From the NCBI RefSeq assembly GCF_000407445.1, contig NZ_ASWB01000003.1, positions 558,001 through 622,000 of the forward strand: a stretch of 64,000 nt of DNA, in the 5' to 3' direction. The first letter of the stretch is position 1; each line of letters opens with the position of its first letter. Origin of the DNA: Enterococcus moraviensis ATCC BAA-383. GTDB taxonomy: Bacteria > Bacillota > Bacilli > Lactobacillales > Enterococcaceae. Under the pieces are notes generated by a model. The model did no database searches and was not told the origin of the DNA. It was given only the letters and a program-made list of their open reading frames with translations. This document shows positions 36,127 through 58,153 of this stretch, piece after piece. The position numbers and the translations under genes were made by a program.

Positions 36127-36792
36127 TTAAACTATTTCAGTAAAATAGTTTGGCCTTTCTATTTGGTACTCTAACTTCGTAGCAAGTTGAACTGAGGTCA
36201 CCCTTCCTGTACCACAGAATAGATCAGTATGTTTTTTCGCAGTTCTAAATGATAAGCCTAAATTTGCCTGCATCATCTGAATCAAACGCATAACTAAATG
36301 GTCCTCTGAGATGCCGAAACTATCAGATATTTGCGAAAGATCCCAGCCTTTTTTTAAAGAATAGAATAATACTCTATCTGGAACCAAAATTATAGAGGCA
36401 CCTATGTTGGCTTGAAATTCCTGTAGTTGCTTGTGCTCACATGATCGTATGTCCCTCACTGTATCATAAAAAAGCTGATTTTGTTTATCCATATGAAACA
36501 AATAATGGGTAATTTCATGACTAATTATAAAATTTTTACTTTTTTCATCTAGCTCTCGATTGAATCCGATTGTGGTTTCTAATGGATCTTGTATGAGTAG
36601 CCCGGCGATCTGCTCACTTGCGATATCATTAAATTGAAACCCTCTGATTACTGCTCCTTGAGATTGCATCAGCTTCCATATGCGAGAATAATTGTAACTC
36701 TCACAACTTATCTCATTATCTAACATAATCGTTGAAATATAATCATTTACTCTAACAGAAAAATCAACATATTCTTTCAAGTATTTGAACAT
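36127..36792 (-). CDS. ImmA/IrrE family metallopeptidase
   Basis: This 221-residue protein has the zinc peptidase motif HEITHYLFH (about 91-99) and a downstream Glu-containing helix (LQEFQANIGASIIL, about 123-136) typical of ImmA/IrrE. Family members cleave or inactivate a partner repressor, as ImmA does to ImmR in ICEBs1 and several prophages. It lies at the leftward end of the tail cluster, 230 bases past the last fibre, in the same direction. No XRE-type repressor is encoded anywhere in the cluster, so its target is unknown. The ribosome site is AAGGTGGGG. It may control tail expression or be an unrelated chromosomal gene. Confidence 0.8.
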   Translation of the reverse strand: MFKYLKEYVDFSVRVNDYISTIMLDNEISCESYNYSRIWKLMQSQGAVIRGFQFNDIASEQIAGLLIQDPLETTIGFNRELDEKSKNFIISHEITHYLFHMDKQNQLFYDTVRDIRSCEHKQLQEFQANIGASIILVPDRVLFYSLKKGWDLSQISDSFGISEDHLVMRLIQMMQANLGLSFRTAKKHTDLFCGTGRVTSVQLATKLEYQIERPNYFTEIV

Positions 36793-37021
36793 CTACCATC
36801 CCCACCTTATTCCTTATTCTTCACCTTGTGCTTTATCACTTACACATTTTACTTTTATAAATTCCTTTTTGTAAATCAATCGTAATCTATTTGTAATATT
36901 TCTGTAATCAGACCTAAGACCTATTTTTGTTTCTTATTATGATAAATTCTATTAAAAAATAACGATTTTTTCTAAATATCACGTTTTTTATCTTTAAATT
37001 TTCTTAATCTCTCTACCGATT

Positions 37022-37843
37022 TTATACAGTAACATAAGTCAAATTAATTAAATGGGTATTTCCAAATCGAAAATTGTAAGCAGAGCCGATTCCAACGTCG
37101 GATGTGTTCACTAACATAATATCGCCATTTTTCTCAATGGTAATGGCCGTGTTAGCATAAATTGCTGTACTTGGGTTTTCTGTTACCATATTGACAGCCA
37201 ATCTAGTCTTTGGAAACAGATCTGGATCTATTAATTTGCCGATTTTAAACTTAGCATTTCTTGGAAATGAAAATGCTAAGATACTGATTAAATTCACACT
37301 AAAGTAAACAGTTTGATTTTGTTTGATAACATTACTATCTTCAATAGCAAAAAATCCTGTCTCGTCAAATAAGACCGCGTCTGATTTATTTATATAGTTA
37401 GAATCGTCGCTAAGAACCGTCAGAGTTCCTGCTTCATCCACTGTAATCGTACGATTATCTGGCTTTACAATTCCTACAGCTTTGTCTGTCGCAATTTTAA
37501 TTTGGGGAATCTCTACCTTTTCTTTGACCAGTTCAACAACTTTTTCTGTGTTTAAATCTGTCGTAACATTATACGTACCACTGCCACTGATATGCAGATA
37601 ACCATCTGTATTATTGAATTGTGTTGGTTGAGTGTTACCATTGCCCCCACTATTGATTGTAGTAAATGTCTTTCCATCATGCGATAATACCCAAACTGAG
37701 TTATCTGGTAAAATATACGCATGGTCTCGGTTTGGCTCTTTGATATCTGATAAGTTTTTTACAGGAACTTCCCAGTCACCAAAATCACAAAAATCTGGGA
37801 CTGAGGGCTGTTTATCATTATTGTTACAAATTTTTGGTTTCAT
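37022..37843 (-). CDS. Tail fibre / receptor-binding protein, short version
   Basis: The 273-residue product shares its first ~75 residues almost exactly with the 576-residue protein upstream: KPKICN...QPSVPDFCDFGDW, VPVKNLSDIKEPNRDHAYIL, PDNSVWVLSHDGK. After that the sequences differ. The middle part is beta-rich with IKIATDKAVGIVKPDNRTITVD, a type of repeat seen in phage fibre and baseplate proteins. The C-terminal ~110 residues (GFFAIEDSNVIKQNQTVYFS...) probably form a distinct receptor-binding head. The ribosome site AAAGGAGG precedes ATG 37843. It is the last tail gene. Host receptor unknown. Confidence 0.7.
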   Translation of the reverse strand: MKPKICNNNDKQPSVPDFCDFGDWEVPVKNLSDIKEPNRDHAYILPDNSVWVLSHDGKTFTTINSGGNGNTQPTQFNNTDGYLHISGSGTYNVTTDLNTEKVVELVKEKVEIPQIKIATDKAVGIVKPDNRTITVDEAGTLTVLSDDSNYINKSDAVLFDETGFFAIEDSNVIKQNQTVYFSVNLISILAFSFPRNAKFKIGKLIDPDLFPKTRLAVNMVTENPSTAIYANTAITIEKNGDIMLVNTSDVGIGSAYNFRFGNTHLINLTYVTV

Positions 37844-37905
37844 TTTTTTCCTCCTTTAGTAGTACCTTTATATTATCTAGTACCAGTAGTATTTTTCCAT
37901 TTATA

Positions 37906-39636
37906 CTATAAAAATACTGTTTTTTGTCTCACAACAAACTCATACTCTTTACCAACATATGAGGTGGAAAAAACATTATTTTTATCGCTTAAAATTGAAT
38001 TATCTGTATTAGGTATATCCGCCATCCAATCAAACATACCAGTCAGCACTAAGCTAAAATCATAGCTGTCATCTGCTGTATTTTTTATCATTTGATAGTA
38101 ACCGGTAATTGTATAATTTTTGTACTCTCCACCGCCATTGCCAGGATCACCCTTAGCAGCGACGTCAAAAGCAAAGGACTCTTTTAATCCCCTAGTTATT
38201 TGTGGTCTATTTTTGAAATTTTGTGTCCTTACAATGCTTCCCTTTTTAGGTTCAAAGTAAAATCCTCCCTCAACTCTGAGCTTAATAGTAAAGAAGTTCA
38301 GACTTTGAATGATAAAATACGAAAAATCACTTGATAAAGTACCTAAATTTAAGCTATTCGTGGACAAACCTAGTACCTTCTCAGTGTTGGTCGTCGTTGT
38401 TAAACCGCCATACGTGAGAATTTTTTTATTTTTTAGTTTCACTATATTGATATCATTTTCTAGGTTGTACTCATAATCTATTCGTTTTTTATTAACATCA
38501 CGATAGACGACAAGATTAGAGATAATATCAGCTTTTGCAAGATCAAAATCTATATACCAATAAGTGGTATCAAATTCCTCTTCGTATCTCCCTCCACCAG
38601 CATAGTATTTCCCCGCAAGGTAAAGCACTCTATTCGTCTTATCTCCAATCGCACTTACATTTATTTGTGTATAAGCTGCATTAAAGCTTACCCAATATTG
38701 AGTATCTGACACTGAATCAATAGTTGATCCTGACTTGTTCCATTCACCAACCCACTTTCCAGCAGAAATAGCTCTCGAATAATGAATGCCATCTTCAGAC
38801 AGACCAATAAAGTTTCCTGAAGTTGATGAATTCATAAGTGCCGTACCTCGCAAAGCTTGATTTGTAGGATTATCTGTCGCAGAGGGGGCTGCTGAAATAG
38901 CACGAAATCCGATTCCTTGCCCCAATATCGTTTGTAATAGTGTGACATTCCCACCAGCGGTAACAACTTGAGCACCAGTGTCTTTAGTAACTTTAATCAT
39001 TTGAGCCAAATCAACTCGAGCAAACTGTCGCCAATCTGCGGAGGACCATTTATTGGACGATATCATCCGACTGTATACATTACCAGATTTATCCAGTGCT
39101 ATAACACTGCCTCCATCTGATTGGATCATACTTGATAAAAATCTTATTTCTCCATCCACTGTTGGTGCATCTGCTACTGCTGGATTGGCAAAACCAGTTT
39201 TAAACCCTGCCCCCGCAGTTACAACTTTACCTAATATAGTTTCTGGTGCAGTTACAACAAGCTCTGCAGACCCATCATCTGCAGTAATTTTGCTCACTTG
39301 AAATTCAGGTTTTAACGTTTCAGTAACTTTTTTCATATCCAAATCGACCGAAACATCATACGTTCCGCTTCTATCAACAGAAATAAATCCATCATTATTT
39401 TCAATTTGAGTTGGTTGGCTATCGCCAGATCCTTCTCCAAGGTTTATCTGGATAAAATTCTTACCATCATGAGACAATACCCAAACAGAATTATCTGGTA
39501 AAATATACGCATGGTCTCGGTTTGGTTCTTTGATATCTGATAAATTTTTTACAGGAACTTCCCAGTCTCCAAAATCGCAAAAATCTTGGACTGAGGGCTG
39601 TTTCTTGTTGTCGTTACAAATTTTAGGTTTCGTCAA
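37906..39636 (-). CDS. Tail fibre / receptor-binding protein, long version
   Basis: This 576-residue product starts at TTG 39636 (ribosome site AGGAGG), overlapping the preceding gene by 14 bases. Residues 1-75 are the attachment module shared with the short fibre, with its two cysteines (ICND..., DFCDF). Two knob-like repeats follow at about 130-215 and 216-300 (ETILGKVVTAGAGFKTGF... and QTILGQGIGFRAISAAP...), each with a YSRxIS-N/A-KW core, resembling pyocin-knob repeats. The C-terminal half (about 310-576) is unique and contains an Asp/Asn-rich outer domain. Fits a trimeric host-recognition fibre. The binding target is unknown. Confidence 0.72.
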   Translation of the reverse strand: MTKPKICNDNKKQPSVQDFCDFGDWEVPVKNLSDIKEPNRDHAYILPDNSVWVLSHDGKNFIQINLGEGSGDSQPTQIENNDGFISVDRSGTYDVSVDLDMKKVTETLKPEFQVSKITADDGSAELVVTAPETILGKVVTAGAGFKTGFANPAVADAPTVDGEIRFLSSMIQSDGGSVIALDKSGNVYSRMISSNKWSSADWRQFARVDLAQMIKVTKDTGAQVVTAGGNVTLLQTILGQGIGFRAISAAPSATDNPTNQALRGTALMNSSTSGNFIGLSEDGIHYSRAISAGKWVGEWNKSGSTIDSVSDTQYWVSFNAAYTQINVSAIGDKTNRVLYLAGKYYAGGGRYEEEFDTTYWYIDFDLAKADIISNLVVYRDVNKKRIDYEYNLENDINIVKLKNKKILTYGGLTTTTNTEKVLGLSTNSLNLGTLSSDFSYFIIQSLNFFTIKLRVEGGFYFEPKKGSIVRTQNFKNRPQITRGLKESFAFDVAAKGDPGNGGGEYKNYTITGYYQMIKNTADDSYDFSLVLTGMFDWMADIPNTDNSILSDKNNVFSTSYVGKEYEFVVRQKTVFL

Positions 39637-40105
39637 CGTTTTCTCCTCCTTTTATAATATCTGCAAAGCATGCAGCACATTCTGTTATTTCAACGCCTAA
39701 AAATTGAGTTATAGCTTTTATGAATAATTTGTTTTTAGTTAATGCAGCGGATAATAACACTTCATCATGATCACTTGCTTGCCACGCTTCAAACGCTGTC
39801 ATCATCGCCATTGCCAAATGTTTTACTGTACACCATTTCTCTTTATCCCCACGACTTCCATATAGTTCAAAAAGGTAGAGCATGTCCGTTCGCCTTACTT
39901 CAGCTAAGGTGATGATTTCTTCTTTAAAGTCAGCGATTTTTTGTAATTGTGACTCAAGATCTGTTTCTAAATCTATCAACCCATTTTCTAATTCTGACAC
40001 TCGTTTTTCCAGTAAGGTTTTGGCATGCATTTCGGCACTTGCAACTTGAACAAAGCTTCTGATCAGATCTTCTGCGATACCGTCCGTTGAATGTTTATTT
40101 TCCAT
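39623..40105 (-). CDS. Tail-cluster coiled-coil protein, unknown
   Basis: Starting at ATG 40105 (ribosome site GGGG, overlapping the previous gene by 11 bases) the product is 160 residues. An N-terminal coiled coil (about 15-65, with VSELENGLIDLETDLESQLQ) leads to a helical C-terminal domain. That domain ends with ITECAACFADIIKGGE, one more CxxC in this cluster. Position between the tip protein and the fibres suggests a fibre adaptor or chaperone. No family is recognised. Confidence 0.6.
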   Translation of the reverse strand: MENKHSTDGIAEDLIRSFVQVASAEMHAKTLLEKRVSELENGLIDLETDLESQLQKIADFKEEIITLAEVRRTDMLYLFELYGSRGDKEKWCTVKHLAMAMMTAFEAWQASDHDEVLLSAALTKNKLFIKAITQFLGVEITECAACFADIIKGGENVDET

Positions 40106-40286
40106 GAGAATCCCCTTTTTTCTGATATTTTGCAATCTCTTTTAGCATAAGATGTTTACTTTGTTGTTGTTCATAGAAAATAGCGTCACTTTCGACTTTA
40201 AAAAGACTGATTACTGTTTGATAATCTTTAGGATGGTGTTGTAAATGGTTCTTCATTTTTTGCGCTTGTTGCTCATATTTATTCAT
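40095..40286 (-). CDS. Small tail-cluster protein, hypothetical
   Basis: This 63-residue, Gln/Lys/His-rich helical protein lies between the tip protein (its start follows that stop codon by four bases) and the coiled-coil protein, which it overlaps. Compact overlap on both sides supports translation. It is in the position where siphophages often carry an XkdX-like or other small gene, but no motif is visible. Confidence 0.5.
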   Translation of the reverse strand: MNKYEQQAQKMKNHLQHHPKDYQTVISLFKVESDAIFYEQQQSKHLMLKEIAKYQKKGDSHGK

Positions 40287-40290
40287 ATCA

Positions 40291-40953
40291 TCACCGATTT
40301 ACATGGGAATACTTTAAATAGTTCACTAACGTTGCATTGAAAATCCCAGTCCCTTTCAGTTCTACTTTTTTATAACCAGGTGTTAAAATAGCGCCCCGTT
40401 GCCAAGTTGGCATAAACCCCACGGCTTTCAGCAAATCATAGTTAGACAAGCCTTTACTTGGGAATACCCCTTCTCCTTCGATCCATGAACCATTGTATTG
40501 TGCCTTCAAATAAGGTGTAACATCGATTCCTTCGATCCAAACTTCAAAATCAGACACGCTACTAGTAAATAAAGAGATACCTGCACTCAGTGAATGGTTA
40601 TGAGGCTCTGTCGTATGTTTATGAGGATTGGGACTAATGGTATTTGGGTTTACCGTTAAGCTTGTCTCACCAACCTGAACAACTGTTGAGCCTGTTGCAC
40701 CACCTGAACCAACCGGCATAGCAAACGGCTGGATAATGATTTTGAATTCAAATCGTTCATAATAAATCAAGTCTGGGCTAACAGAGATATAAAAAGTGGC
40801 AGGATGATCGGTATCACCCTGCCGCGTAAATTCCATTCCGTAAATATCGACTACTTGATTTCGTCGTTGAAGCTGACCTTGTCTACTTTCACTTGTTCGA
40901 TCAGCGATTCGTTCAGCCATCTTATTCAGAGCTGAATCATATGACATTTGCAT
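40291..40953 (-). CDS. Tail tip protein with His-rich HxH segment
   Basis: This 220-residue protein overlaps the stop codon of the tail lysin by one base (TAATG). N-terminal part: a beta-rich domain with DIYGMEFTRQGDTDHPATFY. Middle (about 85-120): a Gly/Ser/Thr/Asn-rich stretch leading to NPHKHTTEPHNHS, two HxH motifs. HxH pairs coordinate iron in needle-like tips and fibres of T4-type phages, so a metal-stabilised trimer is plausible. The C-terminal part (about 120-220) is beta-rich with VWIEGIDVTPYL. Position suggests a tip or short central fibre. Confidence 0.6.
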   Translation of the reverse strand: MQMSYDSALNKMAERIADRTSESRQGQLQRRNQVVDIYGMEFTRQGDTDHPATFYISVSPDLIYYERFEFKIIIQPFAMPVGSGGATGSTVVQVGETSLTVNPNTISPNPHKHTTEPHNHSLSAGISLFTSSVSDFEVWIEGIDVTPYLKAQYNGSWIEGEGVFPSKGLSNYDLLKAVGFMPTWQRGAILTPGYKKVELKGTGIFNATLVNYLKYSHVNR

Positions 40954-43529
40954 TACTGACCACCCTCCCTATCTACTTTTAAGAATTTCTCCAAAACAAC
41001 ACTATTCGTCTCTACACCACTTTGATCGATTGAATAATTGATACTTGTAATGTAAAACCAGTCATCCATTTTCAGGATTTTTTTCATATAATTTGAACAT
41101 TCCTCAATCATTAATAATTGGTTATCATACAGTAAGCGAATTTTATCACCAACATTGATTTCTTCTGGAAGCTCTTCTACTGTCAACTCAATTTGGTAGG
41201 TACGTCTGGACTGTTTCAATTTTTTCACTGCTGCATCATAAGCAGTTTTAGCCGCTTTGGCACGATCTTCATCTGTAATCGTCTCTTCACTTGTATTAAA
41301 CGGAGCCAGATCGTTGAATGAAAAGGATCCTTCGATTACTTTAGCTGATTCTAAGGCAATACTTTCTGTGTCGATCACCGAATACTCGATATTACCGTTC
41401 GGAGCTAATTTTGAAAACTGAATATAATCATATCCTCGTTCATTGTTGATTCCTTTTCTTAAAATCAAGACTGGAAATTTAGGATCTTGACTTGCGCTAT
41501 TTTCATATATTTCTCTCAAACTCATACTCGACATCCCTGAATCTGATTTTTCTCCATACACTGTAGCAATATTGATAACATGATCAAAACTATGTGCAAT
41601 CGTGGGTTCAGCAATGATACGAATATTTTGTTTGCTACTAGGTTTTGTAGAAAATAGATACGATTTCTTTTCACCAAAAGAACCGATTTCCAGCCCCCGA
41701 CCAAAATGAAACCCAACACGCCAAAAAAGATCTGGCGTCAACTCACATGTTTTCGTCAAACCTTCTAATTTATTCTGTCGACTGTAGACATAATCGATCA
41801 CACGCATCGCTGAATCTTGTCTATAATTCACATTCCAGCCTGGATAGCGGAAATCCAACGTACTATAGATATCATTGACTGTTCGATTTTTAGCAGCTAA
41901 ATTGGTTGAAATTTGGCGGTACTCCCATTCAGAAATCACATGGGCCAAATCGATAGATAACGTTTCATTTTCTTTGTCCAATGTATAACCAGTCACAATT
42001 CCATGAAATACTTTTTTGTTGATATATAGTTTGATTTCCTCACGTCCATTGATCCATTCCGTATATTCTATCGGCAAAACGATTTGCGTTGTCGGTACAT
42101 ACATCAATTCATTACTCCAACTAAGCGTATTAAGGATTTTAGTCCCACGTTTGATGACTTTTCCGCCCTCTAAAATTTCAAAAAAGAATTTAGTATTTCC
42201 TTTCGCATAGGGATCGATTTCAACATCAAAGGCTTGTTCAAAAATGATAATCTTATCAAAAATCAGTTCATCTACTGCTGTTCCATTCGTCCGAATTCCT
42301 TTAACATAGACGGCAGTTCCATTGGCTACTTTAAACTTCACTTCAAAGCCTGATTGATCTACGCCAATAACTTTGGGATATGCTTCTTTAACATCGGGAC
42401 GGTTGATAGGTTCGGCTTTGATTCGACCTAATTCTTGATCTGTTTCAGCATTAATAAACGCGATATATTGCTCCCCTTTATCTGAGCTAAAATGCCAGCC
42501 AGACGCGTGGATTTCCCCTTCTTTGATTCCTAAAAAGTCCAATGATCCAACATTTGTCATTGTTTCGAATGTTTCAAAATCACCTAGGTCAGATGGCAAC
42601 TTATTCAAAAAATCATGCCAACGTTTCGCTGCATCTACTCTTCTTTGAAAATGTTCTGTCCCCGCTCGTTCAAAATTTTTAAGAAACGCCAGTGTTGCTT
42701 GTTCAACATCTGTAGCATTTTTAAATGCTTCCACAGATTTAGGCTCAACAACACCGATCCATTGTCCATTGAACATGCACCAATCAATCAAACGAGTTTG
42801 GACTTCTACACTTGTATAGTTTCCGTTTATACCTGCATGAGCGAGTATACGCTGGACATATTCTCGGCCGTTAGAAGTTGGGCTGCCTATTAATGGATAG
42901 GCAGAGCCATCCCATTGAACTAGTCCATAAGCTGGACCCCCATGTGTTTGATCCGTATCAGGATTCATTGATCCACCTGTTTCAACGTCAATATTTCCCA
43001 ATAAACCCGCAATCGAAATCATATTATAACCAGATTTATTTAGGAGCTGTGCAATCGACCAAGCTCTCCGCTCTTCCTCTGATGTTATTTCTGGTGCTGG
43101 AGTGGACCCGCTAGAACCTTTGGGATTGCGGTAAAAAGTCGTTGGTGGATTCCCATTATAACTGAGTCTAGATGCATGATTATCAATTGATATCCCATTT
43201 GCAAACGCATTGCAATGAATAATAGAGGTAGTATCAACAAATATTCCTGCATGCCCATTGTCACCACCAGAAGCGCCTCTTACACCCCATATAAAAACAT
43301 CTCCTCGCTGTGGATTACTTACTTGCTGCCAGCCAACGCCTTCAAGGTGTCCAAATAGAGTATCTGTATTTCCCATTGTACCGACAGTAAATACGCCAGC
43401 TGCGATCAACGCATAATAAACAGCTGAACTACAATCGTAACTATTTGGACCTAATCTAGCCCCTTGACTGTAGGATACTTTCCCTTTGCGTTGATCCATC
43501 CAATTAATTGCTGTTTCAATGCTTGACAT
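40953..43529 (-). CDS. Tail-associated lysin / hub: two peptidoglycan hydrolase domains plus siphophage Tal-like domain
   Basis: This 858-residue protein is modular. Residues ~1-135: phage peptidoglycan amidohydrolase of the Amidase_5 (NlpC/P60-like) type, with catalytic Cys in GPNSYDCSSAVYYAL (Cys33) and His in DNGHAGIFVD. Residues ~150-315: phage tail lysozyme domain (LLNKSGYNMISIAGLLGNID followed by VETGG, with Glu). Residues ~330-858: a beta-rich hub region of the siphophage ReqiPepy6 Gp37/prophage endopeptidase tail type (YINKKVFHGIVTGYTLDKEN). It would form the tail tip and pierce the cell wall locally. ATG 43529 follows GGGGGG. It is the only lytic enzyme in the cluster. Confidence 0.85.
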   Translation of the reverse strand: MSSIETAINWMDQRKGKVSYSQGARLGPNSYDCSSAVYYALIAAGVFTVGTMGNTDTLFGHLEGVGWQQVSNPQRGDVFIWGVRGASGGDNGHAGIFVDTTSIIHCNAFANGISIDNHASRLSYNGNPPTTFYRNPKGSSGSTPAPEITSEEERRAWSIAQLLNKSGYNMISIAGLLGNIDVETGGSMNPDTDQTHGGPAYGLVQWDGSAYPLIGSPTSNGREYVQRILAHAGINGNYTSVEVQTRLIDWCMFNGQWIGVVEPKSVEAFKNATDVEQATLAFLKNFERAGTEHFQRRVDAAKRWHDFLNKLPSDLGDFETFETMTNVGSLDFLGIKEGEIHASGWHFSSDKGEQYIAFINAETDQELGRIKAEPINRPDVKEAYPKVIGVDQSGFEVKFKVANGTAVYVKGIRTNGTAVDELIFDKIIIFEQAFDVEIDPYAKGNTKFFFEILEGGKVIKRGTKILNTLSWSNELMYVPTTQIVLPIEYTEWINGREEIKLYINKKVFHGIVTGYTLDKENETLSIDLAHVISEWEYRQISTNLAAKNRTVNDIYSTLDFRYPGWNVNYRQDSAMRVIDYVYSRQNKLEGLTKTCELTPDLFWRVGFHFGRGLEIGSFGEKKSYLFSTKPSSKQNIRIIAEPTIAHSFDHVINIATVYGEKSDSGMSSMSLREIYENSASQDPKFPVLILRKGINNERGYDYIQFSKLAPNGNIEYSVIDTESIALESAKVIEGSFSFNDLAPFNTSEETITDEDRAKAAKTAYDAAVKKLKQSRRTYQIELTVEELPEEINVGDKIRLLYDNQLLMIEECSNYMKKILKMDDWFYITSINYSIDQSGVETNSVVLEKFLKVDREGGQ

Positions 43530-43533: not shown

Positions 43534-44319
43534 TTACCCCCCTATTTTACTTTGTGCTTTCCATGTTCCACTTTTGCGAATTTGATTCGCACTTTTGTTT
43601 GGCTTACCATCATCACTAAATGACGTTTTCGGAACATCGATCCACTTTCCTGACTTGCGAATCTGCCAAAATCCACCTGTGTTGTCGAGAGATTTCCACG
43701 CACCATTTTTCCGAATCGCCATTGGTCGGTAGTCATCAATAATATCTTTAAATTGGATATAGCTATATGCTAGAGGAAATGTATCATCCCCATAAATCGT
43801 TATTTTTAACCAAGTAATATTAGTTGCATCAAACGTATTTTTCGTAACATCGTTGTACCATGTTCCTCCAGAACTAGTTGCAGAATGTGGATTGTTCCAA
43901 CCAGCCATCGCATAAAGAGGCTGTGACCCATAATATCTCTGTTTCAATGGTTCTGTGAATGCATGTGTGTAAGGTGCACTCGCTGGATCTTCTGTTTGTA
44001 CAGTTGTTTTAGCCACAATCAATTGCCAGTCGTATTCAGCCCCTAAAGTACCTGCATAAACATAAGGTGTATAACTTCCTGTTGTCGCTCTAGTTCCATA
44101 AGCAACCAAGGAAAGACGTAATCTATACAAATTATCATTCACTTTTTCAGCTGTTATTCCTTCCCCATATCCACTTTCTTTAGGAAATCCTGGTGGATTT
44201 CCTGGCATTGCTTGAAACTGCGCTACGGTTGGCGCCCCAACAATATAAACATCTCCTGGAACGCCTGGATCATGACCCCAACTTCCTCGAATCGGAGCAT
44301 ATTTTTTTTCCGCCATCAT
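43534..44319 (-). CDS. Tail/baseplate protein with C-terminal IRKxGxW repeats
   Basis: This 261-residue protein starts at ATG 44319 or the next ATG; it overlaps the preceding gene's stop by one base and ends four bases before the lysin. The N-terminal part (about 1-190) is beta-rich and Tyr/Trp/Pro-rich. The C-terminal ~75 residues carry three short repeats: IRKNGAWKSLDN, IRKSGKWIDVPK and IRKSGTWKAQSK. Repeats of this type occur in phage tail proteins. A wall- or carbohydrate-binding role is a guess. No cysteines here, unlike its neighbours. Confidence 0.6.
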   Translation of the reverse strand: MMAEKKYAPIRGSWGHDPGVPGDVYIVGAPTVAQFQAMPGNPPGFPKESGYGEGITAEKVNDNLYRLRLSLVAYGTRATTGSYTPYVYAGTLGAEYDWQLIVAKTTVQTEDPASAPYTHAFTEPLKQRYYGSQPLYAMAGWNNPHSATSSGGTWYNDVTKNTFDATNITWLKITIYGDDTFPLAYSYIQFKDIIDDYRPMAIRKNGAWKSLDNTGGFWQIRKSGKWIDVPKTSFSDDGKPNKSANQIRKSGTWKAQSKIGG

Positions 44320-44900
44320 TATTCACCTTCTTTGAGTTCTTCTTTCAATTCTTCCTTCAATTCGGCTTTCAGCTGCTTCAATAATGCTGCATTGATTCCG
44401 CCAGCCAAATCATTTTCTGTTGATTTATTGTTAGTTCTAATATAATGAGCGCCATCTGGAGAGCCACCAAACAAGTTGATATTCCCACCAGCGATTCCTT
44501 TACCAGGAATAAATCCGCCTTCAAGGCCACCTTCCCAAACACCGATTTCTTTTAATTTTTCGATGATTTTTAGTAATGCATCTAGCATTTTCTCAATCAA
44601 TTCCCATTGTCCACATTCAGAGCAGATCAAGGCTTTATTCATCAATCGTTGATTATTTAAAAAATCCTGAATAAAGTCTTTAATATCGCACATATTAACT
44701 GCTGTAAGTTCTTCTCCTAAATAGCCTAACAAACAATCATTCATGTTATTTAAATCTTGGCAATTATTGTGTAAGACAGGTAATTTTGGATTCAATCCTG
44801 TATTTTTCTGTAGACTTTTACACTCTTTATCTGTGATCCCATGTAATACAAATTCTGGGCTGGTTGTTTTCAACTCTTCACACGCTTGGCAATCTGTCAT
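44319..44900 (-). CDS. Eight-cysteine tail-cluster protein, paralogue 3 (short)
   Basis: Starting at ATG 44900 (GAGAGG site) the product is 193 residues. The first ~105 residues repeat the eight-Cys domain of the two genes upstream: DCQAC, ITDKEC, LHNNC, MNDCL, VNMCD, CSECGQW. It then diverges: a Gly-rich region (about 120-165, EGGLEGGFIPGKGIAGGN) and a Glu/Lys helix (ELKEELKEELKEGE). The Gly-rich part resembles a fibre linker. The domain may fold around zinc or disulfides and join tail subunits. Confidence 0.65.
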   Translation of the reverse strand: MTDCQACEELKTTSPEFVLHGITDKECKSLQKNTGLNPKLPVLHNNCQDLNNMNDCLLGYLGEELTAVNMCDIKDFIQDFLNNQRLMNKALICSECGQWELIEKMLDALLKIIEKLKEIGVWEGGLEGGFIPGKGIAGGNINLFGGSPDGAHYIRTNNKSTENDLAGGINAALLKQLKAELKEELKEELKEGE

Positions 44901-44947
44901 TTTTTTCATCCTCTCTTTTGACTCTTCTTTTACATACCCCTAACTCT

Positions 44948-45868: not shown

Positions 45869-45885
45869 TCTGTTCATCTCCTTTT

Positions 45886-48150: not shown

Positions 48151-48162
48151 TTTTTTATTATT

Positions 48163-51700: not shown

Positions 51701-52335
51701 ATGCCAACAAGAATACCCATTCCAGCTATTGCTATTCCCATGTTGAGTAGTTTAGGAGCTAAATTCTCTAAATTTGAGGGAACTTTATCATCTATCTGTT
51801 TTAACGCTTCTGCTGCTTCTCCTAGAAGTTTTGTGATGCCTCCAACGGTTTCAAGTCCTGCACTTGCTGTACCAGAAGACTTTCCTGCTAATTTACCAAC
51901 AATCCCAACAAGAATACCCATTCCCGTTATTGCAACCCCCATGTTAAGTAATTTAGGAAGTAATTTTCCTAAATTTGAAGGAACTTTATTGTTAATTTGT
52001 TCCATCGCTTCTGCCGTACTTCCTAACAACTGAACAATCTCACTAACTGCATCCATTCCTGTAACTAATACTCCTGAACCTCCTCCTGTCATTTCAGGAA
52101 CTTTATCACTGATACTTTCAAGAGCACCTGCTCCTTTTTGAATTGATTTAGCAGTATCACTTATAACGCTGAAACTTTTTACCTGATTTAATACCTTTTC
52201 AATTTTTTCAACATTAGGTTGAAAATTAGATTTGTCAATTTTCAACTGTTTTACTTTAGAGTAAAATTGAGATAGTTGCTGTTCTATGCCTTTTGCATTA
52301 CTTTTTATGTTTATCCCTATCTTTTCTATTGCCAC
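48760..52335 (-). CDS. Tape-measure protein
   Basis: This 1191-residue protein starts at GTG 52335 (AAAGGAGGC upstream). It shows the signs of a phage tape measure: long helical repeats of about 75-85 residues (for example VxGTVDSFVAIALDFDVLQGIPINAE, repeated with variation about ten times from 350 to 950), hydrophobic Gly/Ala-rich segments (about 135-310, e.g. LLNMGIAIAGMGILVGIAGKLA twice), and a C-terminal region with FKKKGTDTVPAMLTPGEFV, typical of tape-measure C-termini. At about 0.15 nm per residue it would set a tail near 180 nm. The highly regular repeats allow length change by recombination. There are no cysteines. Confidence 0.88.
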   Translation of the reverse strand: MAIEKIGINIKSNAKGIEQQLSQFYSKVKQLKIDKSNFQPNVEKIEKVLNQVKSFSVISDTAKSIQKGAGALESISDKVPEMTGGGSGVLVTGMDAVSEIVQLLGSTAEAMEQINNKVPSNLGKLLPKLLNMGVAITGMGILVGIVGKLAGKSSGTASAGLETVGGITKLLGEAAEALKQIDDKVPSNLENLAPKLLNMGIAIAGMGILVGIAGKLADKNPVAALVGLGSIWAITELLMKAAEALKQINDKVPGNLEKVTAKMVSIGIAIGGMGIIVAAVGALVATGVGALIAGAGLATVYLLASELMHVSEAISQLDKKVPTNIDKVKQKIKVIAEVIKEFSSLGSPITLIKNIFGSLNTKVVSRTIKVFIDIAKDFELLNKMKIQSEVIKKKIQNIQEVLDMIKGSSITEMLGSVLKSADSSALSGTVDSFVAIALDFDVLQGIPINAEAVSQKLRSIQEALTVFDGVGLREIFDSFTEAINTSILSGIVTQMVDIANSLSTLQGIPLDTEAIKIKIESIKEVLGVFKGASLKDLFGHGLEAIDTTVLIMLIDQLKSVTTKLKEFDAEALDETALASISQKIQNIKSVLALFTGASFGELLDDLYEWASTKIVTGTIGSLITVCSKFKELNEVTEGLNFETIGETIRKIKEVLGELSGSTLEDLLDSVIEASDLKIAATSIEKVVEIAENLSQLQKLKFTYSSIEKKITDVQKAIELLDSDKGIFAGLMGIFNGKIDESTLKTAAASMQQVVAIAKNLAILQEIPLDGDRVSEKIGYVNAAIEKMGKANLLDLFGQMLKTTELTEVKNSVDAMIPLMESLNSLVKDEFNDVMINDRISKLNFIIQNLGSGSLKTIFEKMLKVEELSQIKAAVDILIQIISSFGNLNTTAENVDFQAVNTTIANVANSVGQINNLESATDGVNQINALLQSFNMLITMLQGLEGQFLPIGTSYGQQILQGFNGVAVPTKILEQINQLITNLQAKYSTFTEIGKTYGNNLKTGFAEGVANMISLLTDAINKLTTEESKAQFSIPLNTLGNTLGASLIDGFKEGIRGMATAINEELSNVKTATTKSQGGEVEFHASGGLAGIFKKKGTDTVPAMLTPGEFVQRRAAVSTFGLDFMNKVNNLDVRGAFSALTGRFNTQSMLIPAVSTVVNNINHTTNNANRVTQNVVGGNADYIMKRASRYLR

Positions 52336-52546: not shown

Positions 52547-52984
52547 ATGAAAAAACTTTTTCTACTGGTAATTCCTGTTATATTATTAGCTGCTTGTGGC
52601 AGCTCAACCGACTCTGCTTCTCAGAAAAATGAGCAAAGTGCATCCTCTAGTTCTTCAGCACCAATTACAAATAATAGTTCTACAAAAACACTGACAGGTA
52701 GACTTACTGTAGGTAAAGATGGCGATTTAGAACCCGGAACTTATGATCTAAAAGCCGTTGATGACGGATATGGTACTGTCACCGCTAGAACTTCTGATGA
52801 TAAACCCATCCTTAGAGAACACATGGCTTCACTAAAAGGTAAAGAAAACTATAAAAAAAATTATGTTAAAGATGGAGATGACGACTCCGATCTATACCAT
52901 GAATCTGTAACCGGAATGGTAGTAAAAGAAGGTGACACTGTTCGAGTTTCTAAAGTCTCTGTAGAATTCACTAAAGTCGATTAA
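52547..52984 (+). CDS. Lipoprotein gene between chaperone and tape measure (opposite strand)
   Basis: This 145-residue protein has a lipoprotein signal peptide with lipobox LLAAC (Cys17), a Ser/Asn-rich linker (about 20-48), and a beta domain (about 49-145): RLTVGKDGDLEPGTYDLKAV, VTARTSDDKP, then DTVRVSKVSVEFTKVD. It has its own promoter and terminator and is oriented against the tail genes. It splits the chaperone and tape-measure genes, which are normally adjacent. A decayed copy follows. An anti-superinfection or self-protection role is a reasonable hypothesis by position; nothing in the sequence proves it. Confidence 0.75.
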   Translation: MKKLFLLVIPVILLAACGSSTDSASQKNEQSASSSSSAPITNNSSTKTLTGRLTVGKDGDLEPGTYDLKAVDDGYGTVTARTSDDKPILREHMASLKGKENYKKNYVKDGDDDSDLYHESVTGMVVKEGDTVRVSKVSVEFTKVD

Positions 52985-53998: not shown

Positions 53999-54310
53999 TT
54001 AATCCGCCAAATCATCATTCGTATAAAACAAGACCGCATACTCTTTTGGTTTCTTCACTTTGCGCTTCGTTTCATTCCCAAGCGATTTCCATTCTAGAAA
54101 ATTACTATAACTTTCTTCGTTTGCATATTGCCCGTAAGCCACTAATAATTCAGCAACGCCCCACTCATCTAAGATAATATTCGGGCGTTGCTTTAACACT
54201 TTGGCTACATAATGAGCCATGTACGTGTAAATATTCAAATTCGCAAAAAATGTTTCCGATTCTTTTTCTACTGAAGTCTCATTTTCACATGCTTGTCTGT
54301 AGATTAACCG
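53999..54310 (-). CDS. Tail assembly chaperone, -1 frame extension (GT-like)
   Basis: From the slippery site at 54310-54316 the -1 frame is open without a break to 53999, adding 103 residues (RLIYRQACENETSVEKESET then ...NIYTYMAHYVAKVLKQRPNI...). The stretch from TTG 54238 alone (79 residues) has no ribosome site, which supports expression by frameshifting only. The fusion product would be 287 residues. This is the arrangement of lambda G/GT and of many Firmicute siphophages, where the T part recruits tube subunits to the tape measure. Confidence 0.75.
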   Translation of the reverse strand, partial: RLIYRQACENETSVEKESETFFANLNIYTYMAHYVAKVLKQRPNIILDEWGVAELLVAYGQYANEESYSNFLEWKSLGNETKRKVKKPKEYAVLFYTNDDLAD

Positions 54311-54861
54311 AAAAAAACATCTGCTTCATTAAAGACTTCTGGATGATTTTCCATGATTTTGTTTAGGTTTTCGATCACAGAGAATGGCAGCATATACTCG
54401 CCCATCTGATCGTCGATCCCTAAGAATGTTGCAACTAAGTTGTAGATAGCTAAATGAATTTCATCACCTGCGCCTACAAAAACAGATAACAATTCTTCTT
54501 TGCTAAAGTCTTCCATATCGCCATTTTCTTTCAACTTATTGAAAAATGGGATAATTTTCATAATCGCATCAACAATTCTTAAATCTGAACGTGGTGTGAT
54601 CGTGATATCTCCAAATGCAACGCTAAACACATAATAAGATCCAACCTCTTTAGCACCTTCTGGTTTTTGCTCAAAATGAGTTTGAGGGACACGGAATCTC
54701 ACACTATAGTCTGCTTTTTTCACTTCAGTTTTATTTGCATCCCCGATCACTGATACCTCTTGATCTTTTACCACCGCAAAAGGAGTATCCTTTTCATTCG
54801 TTTTTTTCAAATTATTGCTAATCGCTAAAAAATCAGCGGCTTTCATGCCTTTTTCTTCCAT
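54304..54861 (-). CDS. Tail assembly chaperone (G-like)
   Basis: This 185-residue protein lies right after the tube gene, as tail chaperones do. It has a beta-rich N-terminal half (KKADYSVRFRVPQTHFEQKP) and helical acidic C-terminal half (ENGDMEDFSKEELLSVFVG). ATG 54861 follows AGGAGG. Its last codons GTT TTT TTC GGT TAA contain the heptamer T TTT TTC, a canonical -1 slippery site. The chaperone coats the tape measure during tube assembly and is not part of the finished particle. Confidence 0.8.
   Translation of the reverse strand: MEEKGMKAADFLAISNNLKKTNEKDTPFAVVKDQEVSVIGDANKTEVKKADYSVRFRVPQTHFEQKPEGAKEVGSYYVFSVAFGDITITPRSDLRIVDAIMKIIPFFNKLKENGDMEDFSKEELLSVFVGAGDEIHLAIYNLVATFLGIDDQMGEYMLPFSVIENLNKIMENHPEVFNEADVFFG
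54310..54316 (-). promoter_or_regulatory. Slippery heptamer for programmed -1 frameshifting
   Basis: The coding strand reads T-TTT-TTC in the zero frame, two codons before the TAA at 54304-54306. Slipping back one base enters the open frame that ends at 53999. A downstream stimulatory structure was not evident. Confidence 0.7.
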
Positions 54862-54930: not shown

Positions 54931-56253
54931 TTACTCTGCTACACGGTACATTTCAAAGAAGTTACCGTTTTTATCGCGTTGTACTGAAATTGTAAACTCA
55001 AAAGTAGTTTCTTCGTTATTCACTGTTCCAGGGAATGAAGTGATCAAGACGTTATTATAAACATAGTTTTGTTTCACGCCATCTGTTTGTTCTTGTGTAA
55101 ATGACATACGTACTCGACGTGCATCTAATACATCTTCATTTCCAACAAAGTGCTCTACATCAACTTTTTTCGGATAACTGATTACTAGATCTTTCCCGAC
55201 TAATGATTTATGGAATAAGATTTTTCCATCAGCTAAAACGATAAATTGTTTTTCGTTGATTTCAACAACTGCGGGTGTATTAACACGATTCAATAGTGAC
55301 TCTGTTACATTACAGCTATCCGCGATTGCTGCTGATGTAAAGGCACATTCGTCCATATTCATATCAGCAAGTTGAACATAACCATAGTCCACGCCATCAA
55401 TTGTAGTAGCAGAAACTGCTTTATCTGCTGTTTGGATAATCCAACCGCTTGTTAATGTACCTTTAGACATCAATGGGTTCAATTTCCAGTAATTCGCTGT
55501 AGCGCTCTTACCAGTCAATGTTCTTTCGATTGCGATACTTGTTGCATCATATCCTGCACCAAAACAGCTTGCTTCCACTGGATCTACTGTTAATTCGCCC
55601 GCAAATTCATCGATACAGCCAATTTTAACAACATCATTGATTTCAAAATCTTCAATGCTGTTATAAACGTAAATTGAAGAAAAACCAACCGTTGAAATCG
55701 TTGTGCTATTTGGGATCACATCTACATGAATAATGATTCCATTTTCTCCAGCAGCCCAACCTGTACCCATTTCCATTGCTGGAAGTTTAGATAAATCAAT
55801 CACAACTGGATGGAAACCTGCCTCTTGTACCGTCACCAAGTTTTGATAAATATCTGAATTTAATTTATTTTGATCAGCAATATCAGAAATAGACGTTTCT
55901 ATACTGTAAACTCCAGCTGCAGGTAAATGAACGTAATACGTGATTACCCCTGCTGCAAATTCTGTTGCATCTGCATTTACTGCAAAAGATGCCCCAACTG
56001 AAGAGCCTGCAGTGTTCATGACAGTCAATGTCCCTGAGTTTTTACAGCCTTCTGCTAGACAGTTGAACATATCTTCTGGTGTGTTGTACACATTGTAGAC
56101 TGCACTCATTCCGTCATAGTTAATATAATTTTTTGTATTTACTTTGACACAACTGTCAATATCCGTTAATACAGCAAAATCAACTTCCATCAATTTATTT
56201 AATGATTTCATCCCGATTTTTGAAATTAGTGTATCATTGCTACATCTTGTCAT
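54931..56253 (-). CDS. Probable major tail tube protein (cysteine-containing)
   Basis: This 440-residue protein precedes the tail chaperones, where the tube protein is encoded. It is beta-rich and ends with VYNNVLITSFPGTVNNEETT and FEFTISVQRDKNGNFFEMY, a pattern seen in phage tail tube proteins. It is longer than most tube proteins (150-300), so it probably carries an added outer domain (about 90-330). It has eight cysteines (Cys4, 35, 65, 70 and four later), which could cross-link rings. It starts with MTRCSNDTLISKIGMKSLNKL. A contractile sheath is less likely: no separate tube gene is present and the length and ending fit a tube. ATG 56253 follows AGGGGG. Confidence 0.65.
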   Translation of the reverse strand: MTRCSNDTLISKIGMKSLNKLMEVDFAVLTDIDSCVKVNTKNYINYDGMSAVYNVYNTPEDMFNCLAEGCKNSGTLTVMNTAGSSVGASFAVNADATEFAAGVITYYVHLPAAGVYSIETSISDIADQNKLNSDIYQNLVTVQEAGFHPVVIDLSKLPAMEMGTGWAAGENGIIIHVDVIPNSTTISTVGFSSIYVYNSIEDFEINDVVKIGCIDEFAGELTVDPVEASCFGAGYDATSIAIERTLTGKSATANYWKLNPLMSKGTLTSGWIIQTADKAVSATTIDGVDYGYVQLADMNMDECAFTSAAIADSCNVTESLLNRVNTPAVVEINEKQFIVLADGKILFHKSLVGKDLVISYPKKVDVEHFVGNEDVLDARRVRMSFTQEQTDGVKQNYVYNNVLITSFPGTVNNEETTFEFTISVQRDKNGNFFEMYRVAE

Positions 56254-56268: not shown

Positions 56269-56418
56269 TTATTGATTATTTTGAACGACACGTGTTGCAT
56301 CGCGCTCATATCTTCCGCCATTTTTTTGGTTTAATGTTTGTAATTTTCGTTGAATAAATACTTGTGCATCAACAGTATTTTTCTTCGAAACGTCTTTTGT
56401 CTTTTTCTCTTTAGTCAT
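56269..56418 (-). CDS. Small basic tail-cluster protein
   Basis: Starting at ATG 56418 (AGGAGG site) the product is 49 residues, very Lys-rich at the start (TKEKKTKDVSKKNTVD) and Gln/Arg/Asn-rich later. It lies between the CxxC protein and the tube gene. Role unknown. Confidence 0.5.
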   Translation of the reverse strand: MTKEKKTKDVSKKNTVDAQVFIQRKLQTLNQKNGGRYERDATRVVQNNQ

Positions 56419-56456
56419 TTTCTTTCCTCCTAATTTTAAAAGTGAAACACACTCAT

Positions 56457-56699
56457 TCATCCTAATTTAAACATTTTTACAGCTTGTCCATCTAAACTAT
56501 ATGTTTGTTCTAGTAAAAAATTCCCATCTTTCTCCATCACGTCATATAGTTCTCCAGCATAAAATGTTTTTGTTTGCCCACTTGGTAAAACCATGCGGGC
56601 TTCACGTTGAAACATGTGTTTTGACACTTGTCTGCTGCCGCATGATGAACAGCCAGATTTTTTAATTTGATTCTTGATCCCTAAAAATTGAATATTCAT
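56457..56699 (-). CDS. Small CxxC tail-cluster protein
   Basis: This 80-residue protein starts IQFLGIKNQIKKSGCSSCGS, with a CSSCG motif (about 17-21), then a beta-rich part (MVLPSGQTKTFYAGELYDVM). The motif could bind zinc or form a redox-active disulfide. The ribosome site TGGAGG precedes ATG 56699. Its place before the tube gene is where siphophages have head-tail joining or tail terminator genes; with no head present it could cap the tube. Confidence 0.55.
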   Translation of the reverse strand: MNIQFLGIKNQIKKSGCSSCGSRQVSKHMFQREARMVLPSGQTKTFYAGELYDVMEKDGNFLLEQTYSLDGQAVKMFKLG

Positions 56700-56738: not shown

Positions 56739-57044
56739 TCATTCCTCAATAAATTCTATAGCAAAGTACGAGATTTTTTTGATACGGCCACCGCAAGATT
56801 TACAAAAACTTTCTGTGTAGTCGATATTTAAAGACGTCAATTCATTCACTAACTGTTGCGAATAGGGTCTTTCAATTTGAATATTCTTCAATGACTGACG
56901 AAATACTTTATCGTCCCCTAATTCATATCTTTCACCAGGTTTTAAACGAATGTGGCTATACGCTGTTACGCCCTCTTTTTGACTGGCAACATTTAATGTT
57001 GTTATTGTATCGATTGCATCAATCAATTTAAAATACTTGCTCAT
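56739..57044 (-). CDS. CxxCG tail-cluster protein
   Basis: This 101-residue protein (ribosome site GAGGAAGG) has LKPGERYELGDDKVFRQSLK in the middle and ends with ESFCKSCGGRIKKISYFAIE, a half zinc-ribbon-like CxxCG. It is the first structural-type gene of the cluster. Tube cap/terminator or adaptor is a guess from position; there is no recognised family. Confidence 0.55.
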   Translation of the reverse strand: MSKYFKLIDAIDTITTLNVASQKEGVTAYSHIRLKPGERYELGDDKVFRQSLKNIQIERPYSQQLVNELTSLNIDYTESFCKSCGGRIKKISYFAIEFIEE

Positions 57045-57541
57045 TGACCTTCCTCACTTTTTTCTCTTACTTGTAATAGAGTCTACTAATCAAATTACTA
57101 TGAAACTTAATTAGTCGTTGTATACAAATCTCATTTAGATATGCGATCGTCATATCTTGATCTATATAAACGTAGATAAATTTTGATCAGATCATACACT
57201 TCTCTGACCTTCACAAAAATCTACCTGCCGGAATTGTGATACATTGCCTAACACGATACTTTTGGTTATTAGAGCACATTTGACTGGAAGTAAGTTTATA
57301 ATTATTCTTTTGAGCTTCCGTCAGCCAGTGCATTTCATAACTCATTCTCGATAGGTTCATTTTATACCGAATGTTGCTTTTGAAAATTCGCATATCGTCC
57401 ATACTTGGTATTTCAATGGAACAATGGGTCTTCATCTATCAAAAAAATAGTTGTTCTAGTTATTTAAAAAACTGTAACTTTTTTTGATACTATCATCTTA
57501 CCGTGGAAATATACTTCAAAAATCCGACTATCGTTCGGACC
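57045..57541 (-). other. Leader region of the tail operon with degenerate repeats, no confident gene
   Basis: These ~500 bases separate the regulator from the tail genes and should hold the late promoter. A 74-codon frame (57211-57435) has no ribosome site and contains one copy of the degenerate SMxDIRIF-type repeat; another copy abuts the regulator stop at 57484-57541. I see no clear sigma-A promoter. Confidence 0.5.
57484..57541 (-). repeat. Degenerate repeat family copy (others at 57360-57405, 53870-53938, 53203-53232)
   Basis: The four stretches share a core that reads, on the minus strand, (T)ATGRACGATATNCGAATTTT, or variants of it. Three continue into TTTCCRYRGTAAGATGRTAGTATC or a similar sequence. 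Two copies flank the lipoprotein module (one after each lipoprotein copy) and two flank the start of the tail operon. They could be leftovers of one lost gene (encoded pattern SMNDIRIFR..FR.KM.VS) or a mobile/recombination element. Confidence 0.5.
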
Positions 57542-57961
57542 TTATATCGTTAAATTCAAATCTTTTGCTACCTGTAAAAAGAACCAATCTCTTAATTCAA
57601 AAGCTTTTGTTCGTCCAACAAAAATCAAATTATTTGTAATTAAACCTTGAATCGTATACTTGGGCATTCTCCGCATATACAGTTCTTGAATAATTGTTTT
57701 AGTATCTTCGCAACATTCTTCTAGTAGGTTAGATACAATACGTTTATTTCGTTCTAAGGCAGCTAGCCTTTGATCTTGTTCAATAGTAATCATTAAGCTA
57801 TCTTGAGCATTATATCCAGCCCCACTTCCTTTAATTCCTGAGTTTAAGTCATTTTCACGATAGGGGTATCTTAACTCTTCTTCGCGTTGTTTAATGTACT
57901 CCTCGATTCTTGGATAATCTGACAGAATCTCTTTAATGTAATTAAATGTTGATTTTCTCAT
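57542..57961 (-). CDS. RinA/ArpU-family phage late-gene regulator
   Basis: Starting at ATG 57961 (AAAGGAGGC site) the product is 139 residues and matches the ArpU/RinA pattern. It has an N-terminal helix with YIKEILSDYPRIEEYIKQRE, then EELRYPYRENDLNSGIKGSG, a central helix with RLAALERNKRIVSNLLEECC, and a C-terminal helix-turn-helix-like end (KYTIQGLITNNLIFVGRTKA). RinA-type proteins switch on phage late (structural) genes. It is encoded just upstream of the tail genes and is probably their activator. A TCGCTA-N12-TAGCGA inverted repeat at 57993-58016 in its own leader is a candidate operator. Confidence 0.8.
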   Translation of the reverse strand: MRKSTFNYIKEILSDYPRIEEYIKQREEELRYPYRENDLNSGIKGSGAGYNAQDSLMITIEQDQRLAALERNKRIVSNLLEECCEDTKTIIQELYMRRMPKYTIQGLITNNLIFVGRTKAFELRDWFFLQVAKDLNLTI

Positions 57962-58153
57962 CTTATTGCCTCCTTTTATTGATCGACCATTCTCGCTAAT
58001 ACAACCAATATAGCGACTCACTTTTAAGCTGATAACTGTATTTTATTCACTCAATAAGTACATCTTACTTTATATAAATTCTTTTTTACTTTCGAATTAC
58101 TGTCAATTGTCTCCCAAAAAAAATGACTGACTCCATCTCTCTTAATTAAGTCG

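Follow-up and report, generated by a model that had tools for sequence, protein, structure and literature searches.

A 64,000-nucleotide stretch of the Enterococcus moraviensis ATCC BAA-383 genome (contig NZ_ASWB01000003.1, positions 558,001 to 622,000; hereafter the window) contains, at 36127-58021, a complete leftward gene module for a non-contractile phage tail, as judged by Pfam, PHROG and TIGRFAM-type matches and by homology (Table 1). Comparison with related genomes gives good support to the view that this module is a domesticated headless tail of the type found in phage P087, likely an F-type tailocin in function. The best explanation of the locus as a whole is probably that such a tail has been domesticated as an F-type tailocin-like weapon, accompanied by lipoproteins that would block its own tape measure protein (TMP).

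The tail type is already known, since its tube and Dit (distal tail) proteins match P087-type phages and its tube also matches three records from E. faecalis BE65; the headless form is the subject here. In tblastn searches of 50,697 phage records, tube and Dit each returned 15 records, all of them Lactococcus phages and P087 among them (E 4e-24 to 7e-26, 84-94% of the query, 24.6-26.7% identity); the remaining records presumably belong to the P087 group. Among plasmid records the tube matched the three from BE65, all of which carry head genes. These ‘plasmids’ (CP110025, CP110026 and CP110027; L005-L007) combine portal, capsid and neck homologues with P087-type tail genes, two of the three have many broken frames, and all three resemble phage genomes or fragments of prophages more than plasmids. 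With homologous tube and Dit genes in P087 synteny, the ancestor of the window tail is, to judge from these matches, the tail of the lactococcal phage P087 / E. faecalis prophage type.

The HEADLESSNESS head-gene comparison used seven head-module proteins from the head-bearing E. florum locus as queries. PHROG support is strong for the portal and adaptor, moderate for the neck protein and weak for the morphogenesis protein; the terminase (which has no Pfam or PHROG match), scaffold and capsid were named by position and size. None of the seven matched any open reading frame (ORF) of the window region, and none matched in any of the ten headless clusters, namely the nine congeneric ones (window included) and that of Enterococcus sp. 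PF1-24, which belongs to another genus. Every head-bearing record that has TMP and Dit, P087 with its independently annotated portal among them, gave matches to four or more of the seven. By this comparison the terminase, portal and capsid of a P087-type phage are absent from the window cluster, and no Pfam or PHROG match suggests a sheath, baseplate ATPase, integrase, holin or free endolysin in it; this agrees with the list of missing genes given in an earlier note on this DNA. What is present is the siphophage-type tail expected of an F-type tailocin (tube, chaperones, TMP, Dit and tip) without a sheath and without head, packaging or integration genes. The place of head loss may also be visible. 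Two small CxxC genes enclose the head genes in 13 head-bearing records in which both were recognised, in the order Cys101, scaffold, capsid, adaptor, CysS80, tube (in P087 CysS80 was recognised alone, and in genome G035 neither was). In the nine headless congeners Cys101 and CysS80 adjoin each other. The simplest reading of this arrangement would be that the head cassette was lost from between the two retained genes.

The tube gene was found in nine of 22 congeneric genomes and in 13 of 105 genomes of the family. The four further family genomes are E. florum, the headless PF1-24, G035 (a weak match, head-bearing) and G076, whose weak match (E 1e-5) was dropped as no other tail gene was recognised around it. 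All nine congeneric carriers are headless, as is the one genome of another genus. Five congeneric clusters lie between degV and an ABC-F gene (site 1: window, E. caccae, E. crotali, G004 and G008). The other four occupy a second site (site 2: G002, E. larvae, G015 and G016), where the same genes follow (FtsW/RodA, ArsC-like and GcvH-like by Pfam in G002) and the left flank is alike in three of the four. The left flank of the remaining one (G015, L037) differs and holds large ORFs, one of them with a lysin-like match (36% to the tail lysin); it is perhaps another phage element beside the cluster. Flanks are common to carriers across species. In G009 and G012 degV and ABC-F are direct neighbours, leaving the site empty; in G011 (L059) and G017 (L063) a gene for an M78 metalloprotease stands alone between them, without tail genes, and may be a scar or a gene that was there earlier.

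Core structural frames are intact in nine of nine congeneric clusters. In pairwise Nei-Gojobori comparisons of the window with four relatives, eleven structural genes (those for the tube, the two chaperone parts, Dit, Cys1-3, the IRKxGxW protein, the lysin, phr34217 and phr15722) had a ratio of nonsynonymous to synonymous substitution rates (dN/dS) of 0-0.10, compared with 0.02-0.05 for degV and 0.01-0.02 for purA. Values were 0.09-0.11 for CysS80, 0.18-0.43 for Cys101 and s63, and 0.11-0.31 for M78; those for TMP (0.22-0.41) and lipoA (0.20-0.73) are unreliable, with dS above 1 and one lipoA broken. The module is thus kept by selection at a fixed locus. The earlier note had proposed a domesticated F-type-like headless tail and a survey of related Enterococcus genomes for the block at this site, and had named linked head genes or widespread frame disruption as signs of a decaying prophage. 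The survey returned five site-1 carriers with neither sign: no capsid, terminase or portal homologue was recognised in them and no core frame is disrupted. It is because headless copies recur with intact core frames under purifying selection that the tail is considered domesticated, and on shared flanks, frames and dN/dS the proposal holds. A tail-gene tree rooted on the second site places window, G004 and E. caccae in one clade, whereas flanking core genes group E. caccae with E. crotali; as the two groupings disagree, the cluster has probably moved or recombined between species.

The more novel part is a set of cassettes beside the TMP gene that encode an acidic lipoprotein, lipoA. Together with lipoB, a lipoprotein gene upstream of TMP, lipoA was missing from the parts list of the earlier note. 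lipoA occurs in eight of nine carriers and in none of the 13 other congeners, with strong matches only inside the cluster, and was found in no head-bearing relative examined; lipoA-profile matches in 12 family genomes were not counted, being weak, in open frames of 276-405 residues, and probably due to shared lipoprotein signal peptides. Headless clusters carry one to five copies, and one genome (G016) at least 18. Of 14 head-bearing records, 12 have TMP and Dit −22 to +16 bp apart; of the other two, L004 has an HNH endonuclease there and pBE65_3 a broken Dit frame. In nine of ten headless clusters the distance is 392-19738 bp. This count includes pBE65_2 and pBE65_3 despite their broken frames, excludes L003 as too short to class and contains three near-duplicates (L080, L089 and pBE65_1). 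In PF1-24 the interval (L077 17230-17901) is occupied by another kind of small protein, which has a hydrophobic C-terminal segment as well as two CxxC pairs, and by a second copy of it that is broken. A protein like lipoB lies at the same place in G002 and G008, and other lipoproteins lie there in E. crotali and G004.

The G016 interval contains 18 lipoA copies with a mature part above 110 residues, interleaved with four partial TMP genes (150, 945, 122 and 895 residues). Comparison of nine of these copies gave 36 pairs, 12 of which share more than 88% nucleotide identity in the leader (93-100%); the rest of the gene is 67-81% identical in 11 of the 12 and 99% in one, a mosaic pattern. Similar hairpins with a T-run stand among the lipoA copies. 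One was found in each of window, E. caccae, E. crotali, G004, E. larvae and G008, and 16 in G016; G002 has five and a further one that differs from them, and G015, which has no lipoA, has none. The G002 array (L048, L034) also contains a 426-residue transposase-like gene, which by eye we take to be IS110-like.

Beside these cassettes the TMP itself varies. Across the five site-1 clusters tube and Dit are 90-97% identical and the TMPs 38-85%. The last 100 residues are 82-100% identical and the preceding 100 only 30-61%, except between window and E. crotali (91%). The TMPs of this pair are 12-40% identical in 25-residue windows over residues 692-990 (window protein) and then 84-96% to the end, and their DNA is 76-98% identical through the TMP end, lipoA and the following spacer; the E. 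caccae and G004 spacers are poorly alignable there. Because the similarity spans both genes, a single exchange probably carried the TMP end together with lipoA, though the E. crotali lipoA is disrupted. This is the one clear case of joint transfer, and the copies in G016 do not match. lipoA has a lipoprotein signal and an acidic mature domain (mean net charge −13.5 over 29 copies above 110 residues), and the last 100 TMP residues carry a net charge of +6 to +9 in congeneric copies and +5 in PF1-24. The pairing of an acidic lipoprotein with a basic TMP end fits the charge rule reported for Ltp of phage TP-J34, which is described as having a negatively charged interaction surface and as targeting the positively charged C-terminal region of a TMP (PMC3952083).

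Taken together, the data would be consistent with the following course of events. A P087-type siphophage or prophage would have lost its head, packaging, replication and integration genes, and in this Enterococcus group the tail module would have become a lasting part of the chromosome, serving as a tailocin-like weapon of the F-type (flexible, non-contractile). A stress signal would relieve repression through the M78 protease, as in monocins, RinA would turn on the structural operon, and headless tails would assemble around the TMP. These would bind a relative via the Cys-rich/BspA_v and fibre proteins, the lysin would open the target wall, and the TMP would insert into the membrane and depolarise it, while the lipoproteins encoded beside the TMP gene would, like the phage exclusion lipoprotein Ltp, block this insertion and so shield the producer.

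Several results weigh against parts of this scheme. The TMP has no Pfam family above cut-off, and no toxin domain was found. The one informative head-bearing pair, which has no lipoA (L083/L084), has tubes 83% identical and TMP segments only 36% identical, so that hypervariability as a trait specific to headless clusters had to be rejected; the basic TMP end is likewise not unique to them, being found in E. florum (+4). lipoA is disrupted in E. crotali and truncated in G008, but in both a lipoprotein is still encoded at the lipoB position. The tail module of G015 is intact, yet its TMP-Dit gap is 14 bp and it has no lipoA; a lipobox pattern, which misses some known lipoproteins, detected none in this cluster. 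In G016 two TMP copies with C-terminal 450 residues 94% identical are followed by different lipoA genes (core 63%), and strict TMP-lipoA matching is not supported there. The lipoA profile gave five weak matches to PDB sequences up to E 1, none an exclusion protein by name. Finally, holin and endolysin genes are absent from the window, E. caccae and G004 clusters and kept in the other six of nine. With this mixed evidence, the lipoproteins as TMP-directed immunity are a testable and unusual proposal: that they protect the producer is, taken on its own, a claim we place slightly below even chances. Only tentatively would we go on to the fuller version, in which this is the first tailocin with dedicated, diversifying self-immunity, its acidic lipoproteins binding the TMP C-terminal region to block insertion, and TMP variants and cassettes, many of the latter with a terminator-like hairpin of their own, being exchanged and stockpiled, so that strains differing in the pair would kill each other despite shared receptors.

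The other use to which such lipoproteins could be put is superinfection exclusion against free P087-type phages, with the tail cluster as only a recombination-prone home for lipoA and lipoB. Ltp, the model, is itself described as a lipoprotein that excludes phages (PMC3952083), genomes of P087-type phages are found in enterococci, and the TMP segment is hypervariable in the head-bearing pair too. However, headless clusters were the only setting in which lipoA was found, and none turned up at this position in head-bearing relatives, which makes this account somewhat doubtful; exclusion and self-immunity would use the same contact, and the two overlap. That the whole cluster is a decaying prophage remnant whose tail genes were kept by chance, with lysis loss in the window lineage as the next step, would agree with the lysis cassette missing from three of nine clusters, the 13 of 22 congeners without a cluster, the lone M78 of G011 and G017, the broken lipoA copies, the broken M78 of E. 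crotali and the higher dN/dS of M78, Cys101 and s63 (0.11-0.43). It is nevertheless improbable, as core frames are intact in all nine clusters, purifying selection extends even to the lysis-less clade, and every copy is headless rather than each decayed differently.

A device that does not kill, and that serves surface adhesion, the transfer of DNA or protein, or the remodelling of walls without lysis, is suggested by the BspA_v adhesin-like domains of two Cys-rich proteins and by purifying selection in the window clade without its lysis cassette, but holin and endolysin genes still accompany the tail genes in six of nine clusters and no effector or cargo gene was recognised in Pfam and PHROG scans; we consider such a device unlikely as well. 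That the cluster is a phage satellite or helper-dependent element, with heads supplied by a resident phage, is very improbable: tail-only modules could in principle be completed in trans, but no terminase or integrase homologue was recognised, the sites are shared between species, and an E. florum-type capsid was found in none of the 22 congeneric genomes, a set that holds no positive control for a query that does detect homologues by blastp in head-bearing relatives.

As the lysis genes are absent, the window copy does not encode the holin and endolysin of an F-type tailocin and is described here as working like one rather than as a full member. Their loss from the window-lineage cluster means that release needs lysis from elsewhere or does not happen, and purifying selection between window and E. 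caccae and between window and G004 suggests that the tails stayed useful after the loss. Holin_SPP1 (PF04688) occurs in six of 22 genomes, all of them cluster carriers with one copy beside the cluster, and two have a further copy elsewhere; PF04531, tried as the holin family, gave no matches, and PF04688 proved to be the right one. Elsewhere in the window genome (C1:83000-102900, L093) lies another siphophage tail and lysis region, of conventional appearance, with an Amidase_5 gene and, by eye, a 1107-residue TMP-like gene; this region is a possible lysis donor. Beside mnmG on C3 (L090 9697-10962) lie a 117-residue regulator-like protein and then a 254-residue Amidase_5 endolysin. The regulator-like protein is of a kind found upstream of rinA in several clusters; it has no Pfam match. 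Matches to it occur in 18 of 22 congeners and reach at least 67% in 12 of these, the window included. The endolysin seemed complementary in five genomes and was considered as a relocated lysis gene of the window lineage, a candidate rejected on finding 71-84% homologues in 11 of 13 cluster-free congeners.

Cysteine richness had been presented in the earlier note as a special feature of the structural proteins. Most of them do carry cysteines, but enrichment is limited to Dit (5.8%, P 7e-15), Cys3 (4.1%), Cys2 (2.9%), Cys1 (2.6%) and the tube (1.8%, P 0.004), against a baseline of 0.57% in 31 non-cluster window ORFs of at least 150 residues; no other cluster protein tested was significantly enriched, the chaperone parts have no cysteine and the TMP has one. 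All eight tube cysteines are conserved without exception in the 16 sequences aligned, of which nine come from head-bearing phages, and the P087 tube likewise has eight; Dit has 19-22 in four head-bearing relatives and nine in P087. Since head-bearing relatives with this type of tail have these cysteines too, the richness belongs to the phage type, and its reading as a peculiarity of this cluster or as a tailocin-specific trait was abandoned. The tube matched no solved structure among PDB sequences up to E 1.

With respect to regulation, a 28-base element (TTTCCACGGTAAGATGATAGTATCAAAA) follows rinA within ~40 bp at 20-28 of 28 matching positions in nine of nine congeneric clusters. It recurs in the chaperone-TMP interval of window, G008 and E. 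caccae (in the last of these within the 5′ portion of the predicted TMP ORF), and we infer that it may be a RinA-dependent late promoter. The slippery site GTTTTTTTC is identical in nine of nine congeneric clusters. No repressor gene, the partner expected in monocin-type regulation, lies beside M78 in the window; in G002 and E. larvae a helix-turn-helix gene (HTH_3 by Pfam in G002) lies beside the M78 gene upstream of the cluster. M78 and DUF955 are, we assume, the same family. The monocin anti-repressor MpaR is described as a DUF955 metalloprotease (PMC6872733).

The genes, order and strand set out in the earlier note, from which the labels IRKxGxW and HxH are taken, were confirmed by the family matches, and many cluster proteins match PHROG phage families of unknown function, often with high scores. 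The tube role of the 54931..56253 product is inferred from position and family; chaperone T has no Pfam match. Cys1, Cys2 and Cys3 have a Cys-rich N-terminus in common, and the lysozyme part of the tail lysin matches PDB 9m7n Gp16. Fibres A and B diverge after their shared N-terminus, as do the fibres of relatives, in the manner of swappable receptor ends. A conserved non-coding stretch (AAATAGGTCTTAGGTCTGATTACA..., 36793-37021) lies upstream of M78 in the five site-1 clusters. The cluster is flanked by rplI-dnaB-purA-degV on one side and by ABC-F / PTS-type genes on the other, in agreement with the degV/purA and ABC-F/mpt neighbours named before; dnaA would lie ~31 kb away, as estimated from the spacing in E. 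caccae (~36 kb there).

Table 1. Features of the tail cluster in the window, from the regulatory end leftward
Feature	Position	Strand	Evidence or remark
RinA/ArpU-type late regulator	57542..58021	-	TIGR01636 99.8 bits; phrog_36
Repeated 28-base element, candidate late promoter	57482..57509	-	downstream of rinA; second copy 53872-53899, chaperone-TMP interval
Cys101, small CxxC protein	56739..57044	-	phrog_34060; precedes scaffold gene in head-bearing relatives
CysS80, small CxxC protein	56457..56699	-	phrog_34044; follows head-tail adaptor in head-bearing relatives
Small ORF (62 residues) upstream of tube	56269..56460	-	similar ORF in several relatives; no Pfam match
Tail tube (putative), P087 gp70 type, 8 invariant Cys	54931..56253	-	phrog_14985 356 bits (‘virion structural protein’); tblastn to P087
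Tail chaperone G	54304..54861	-	phrog_37229; dN/dS 0.01-0.07
Slippery site	54310..54318	-	before chaperone G stop; −1 shift would join G to T
Chaperone T part	53999..54238	-	phrog_36722
lipoB, lipoprotein upstream of TMP, opposite strand	52547..52984	+	lipoprotein-type signal
TMP, mosaic	48760..52335	-	phrog_35723; last 100 residues conserved, segment before hypervariable
lipoA, acidic lipoprotein, candidate immunity/exclusion factor	48163..48651	-	between TMP and Dit; lipoprotein-type signal
Second lipoA copy, remnant	47978..48155	-	
Terminator-like hairpin after lipoA unit	47940..47979	-	
Distal tail protein, Dit type, 21 Cys	46820..47902	-	phrog_16596 334 bits; homologue annotated distal tail protein in phages AM6, AM7
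Cys1, Cys-rich N-terminus + BspA_v adhesin-like domain	45886..46803	-	PF18220 41.4 bits
Cys2, architecture as Cys1	44948..45877	-	PF18220 30.2 bits
Cys3, Cys-rich N-terminus + short C-terminus	44319..44909	-	phrog_35125
Baseplate-type protein (IRKxGxW repeats per the earlier note)	43534..44319	-	phrog_7782, function unknown
Tail-associated lysin	40953..43529	-	Amidase_5 PF05382 + Phage_lysozyme2 PF18013; phrog_35693 1069 bits
Tail-module protein phr34217	40291..40953	-	phrog_34217, function unknown
Small conserved ORF	40095..40286	-	
Tail-module protein phr15722	39623..40135	-	phrog_15722, function unknown; 42% to P087
Fibre A	37906..39636	-	first 66 residues: 58 identical to fibre B
Fibre B	37022..37843	-	N-terminus near-identical to fibre A
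M78 (IrrE/ImmA-like) metalloprotease, candidate anti-repressor	36127..36792	-	PF06114 42.3 bits

On genomic grounds, some enterococci of this group would seem to maintain headless tail genes at set positions in the chromosome, apparently for use as a weapon on their relatives, and the clusters show the domestication of a named phage tail type together with the place of head-gene loss. Tailocins are thought to spare their producers through receptor differences, not immunity proteins. If lipoA protects against the TMP, kin recognition by a tailocin would be encoded at the step of membrane insertion, and F-type killing would become testable by genetics, with the TMP segment set against the blocking lipoprotein. 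F-type tailocins are called rare, with F-pyocin and monocin named as exceptions (PMC10811719), and the titles and abstract openings among the literature matches listed describe neither an enterococcal tailocin nor a lipoprotein array beside a TMP gene.

P087 (Teubervirus) and the P087-like E. faecalis prophages share with the window a homologous tube, chaperone T, Dit, C-terminal lysin part and phr15722 in the same order, but have head and packaging genes, and in P087 Dit directly follows TMP and no lipoA homologue was found. The monocins of Listeria (F-type, ftb cluster) are likewise headless siphophage-type tails with a regulatory DUF955 metalloprotease, MpaR (PMC6872733, PMC7076858). By contrast, monocins are described as showing weak homology to phage A118 and as encoding holin and endolysin, whereas the window has neither lysis genes nor a repressor gene beside M78; a lipoprotein beside TMP is not mentioned in the portions of the monocin descriptions consulted (PMC6872733, PMC7076858). 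The gene for Ltp lies in a lysogeny module. Like lipoA, Ltp is an acidic lipoprotein, and its target is reported to be the basic C-terminal region of a TMP (PMC3952083), but lipoA matched no exclusion lipoprotein such as Ltp in the PDB sequence search and forms arrays beside the TMP gene of a headless cluster. Finally, the G016 interval, with its conserved end, hypervariable segment and partial orphan copies amid diversified small genes, resembles the general pattern of polymorphic toxin-immunity loci; the window and its relatives differ from these in that no toxin domain was found, no strict matching of partners was observed, and the variable protein is the TMP.

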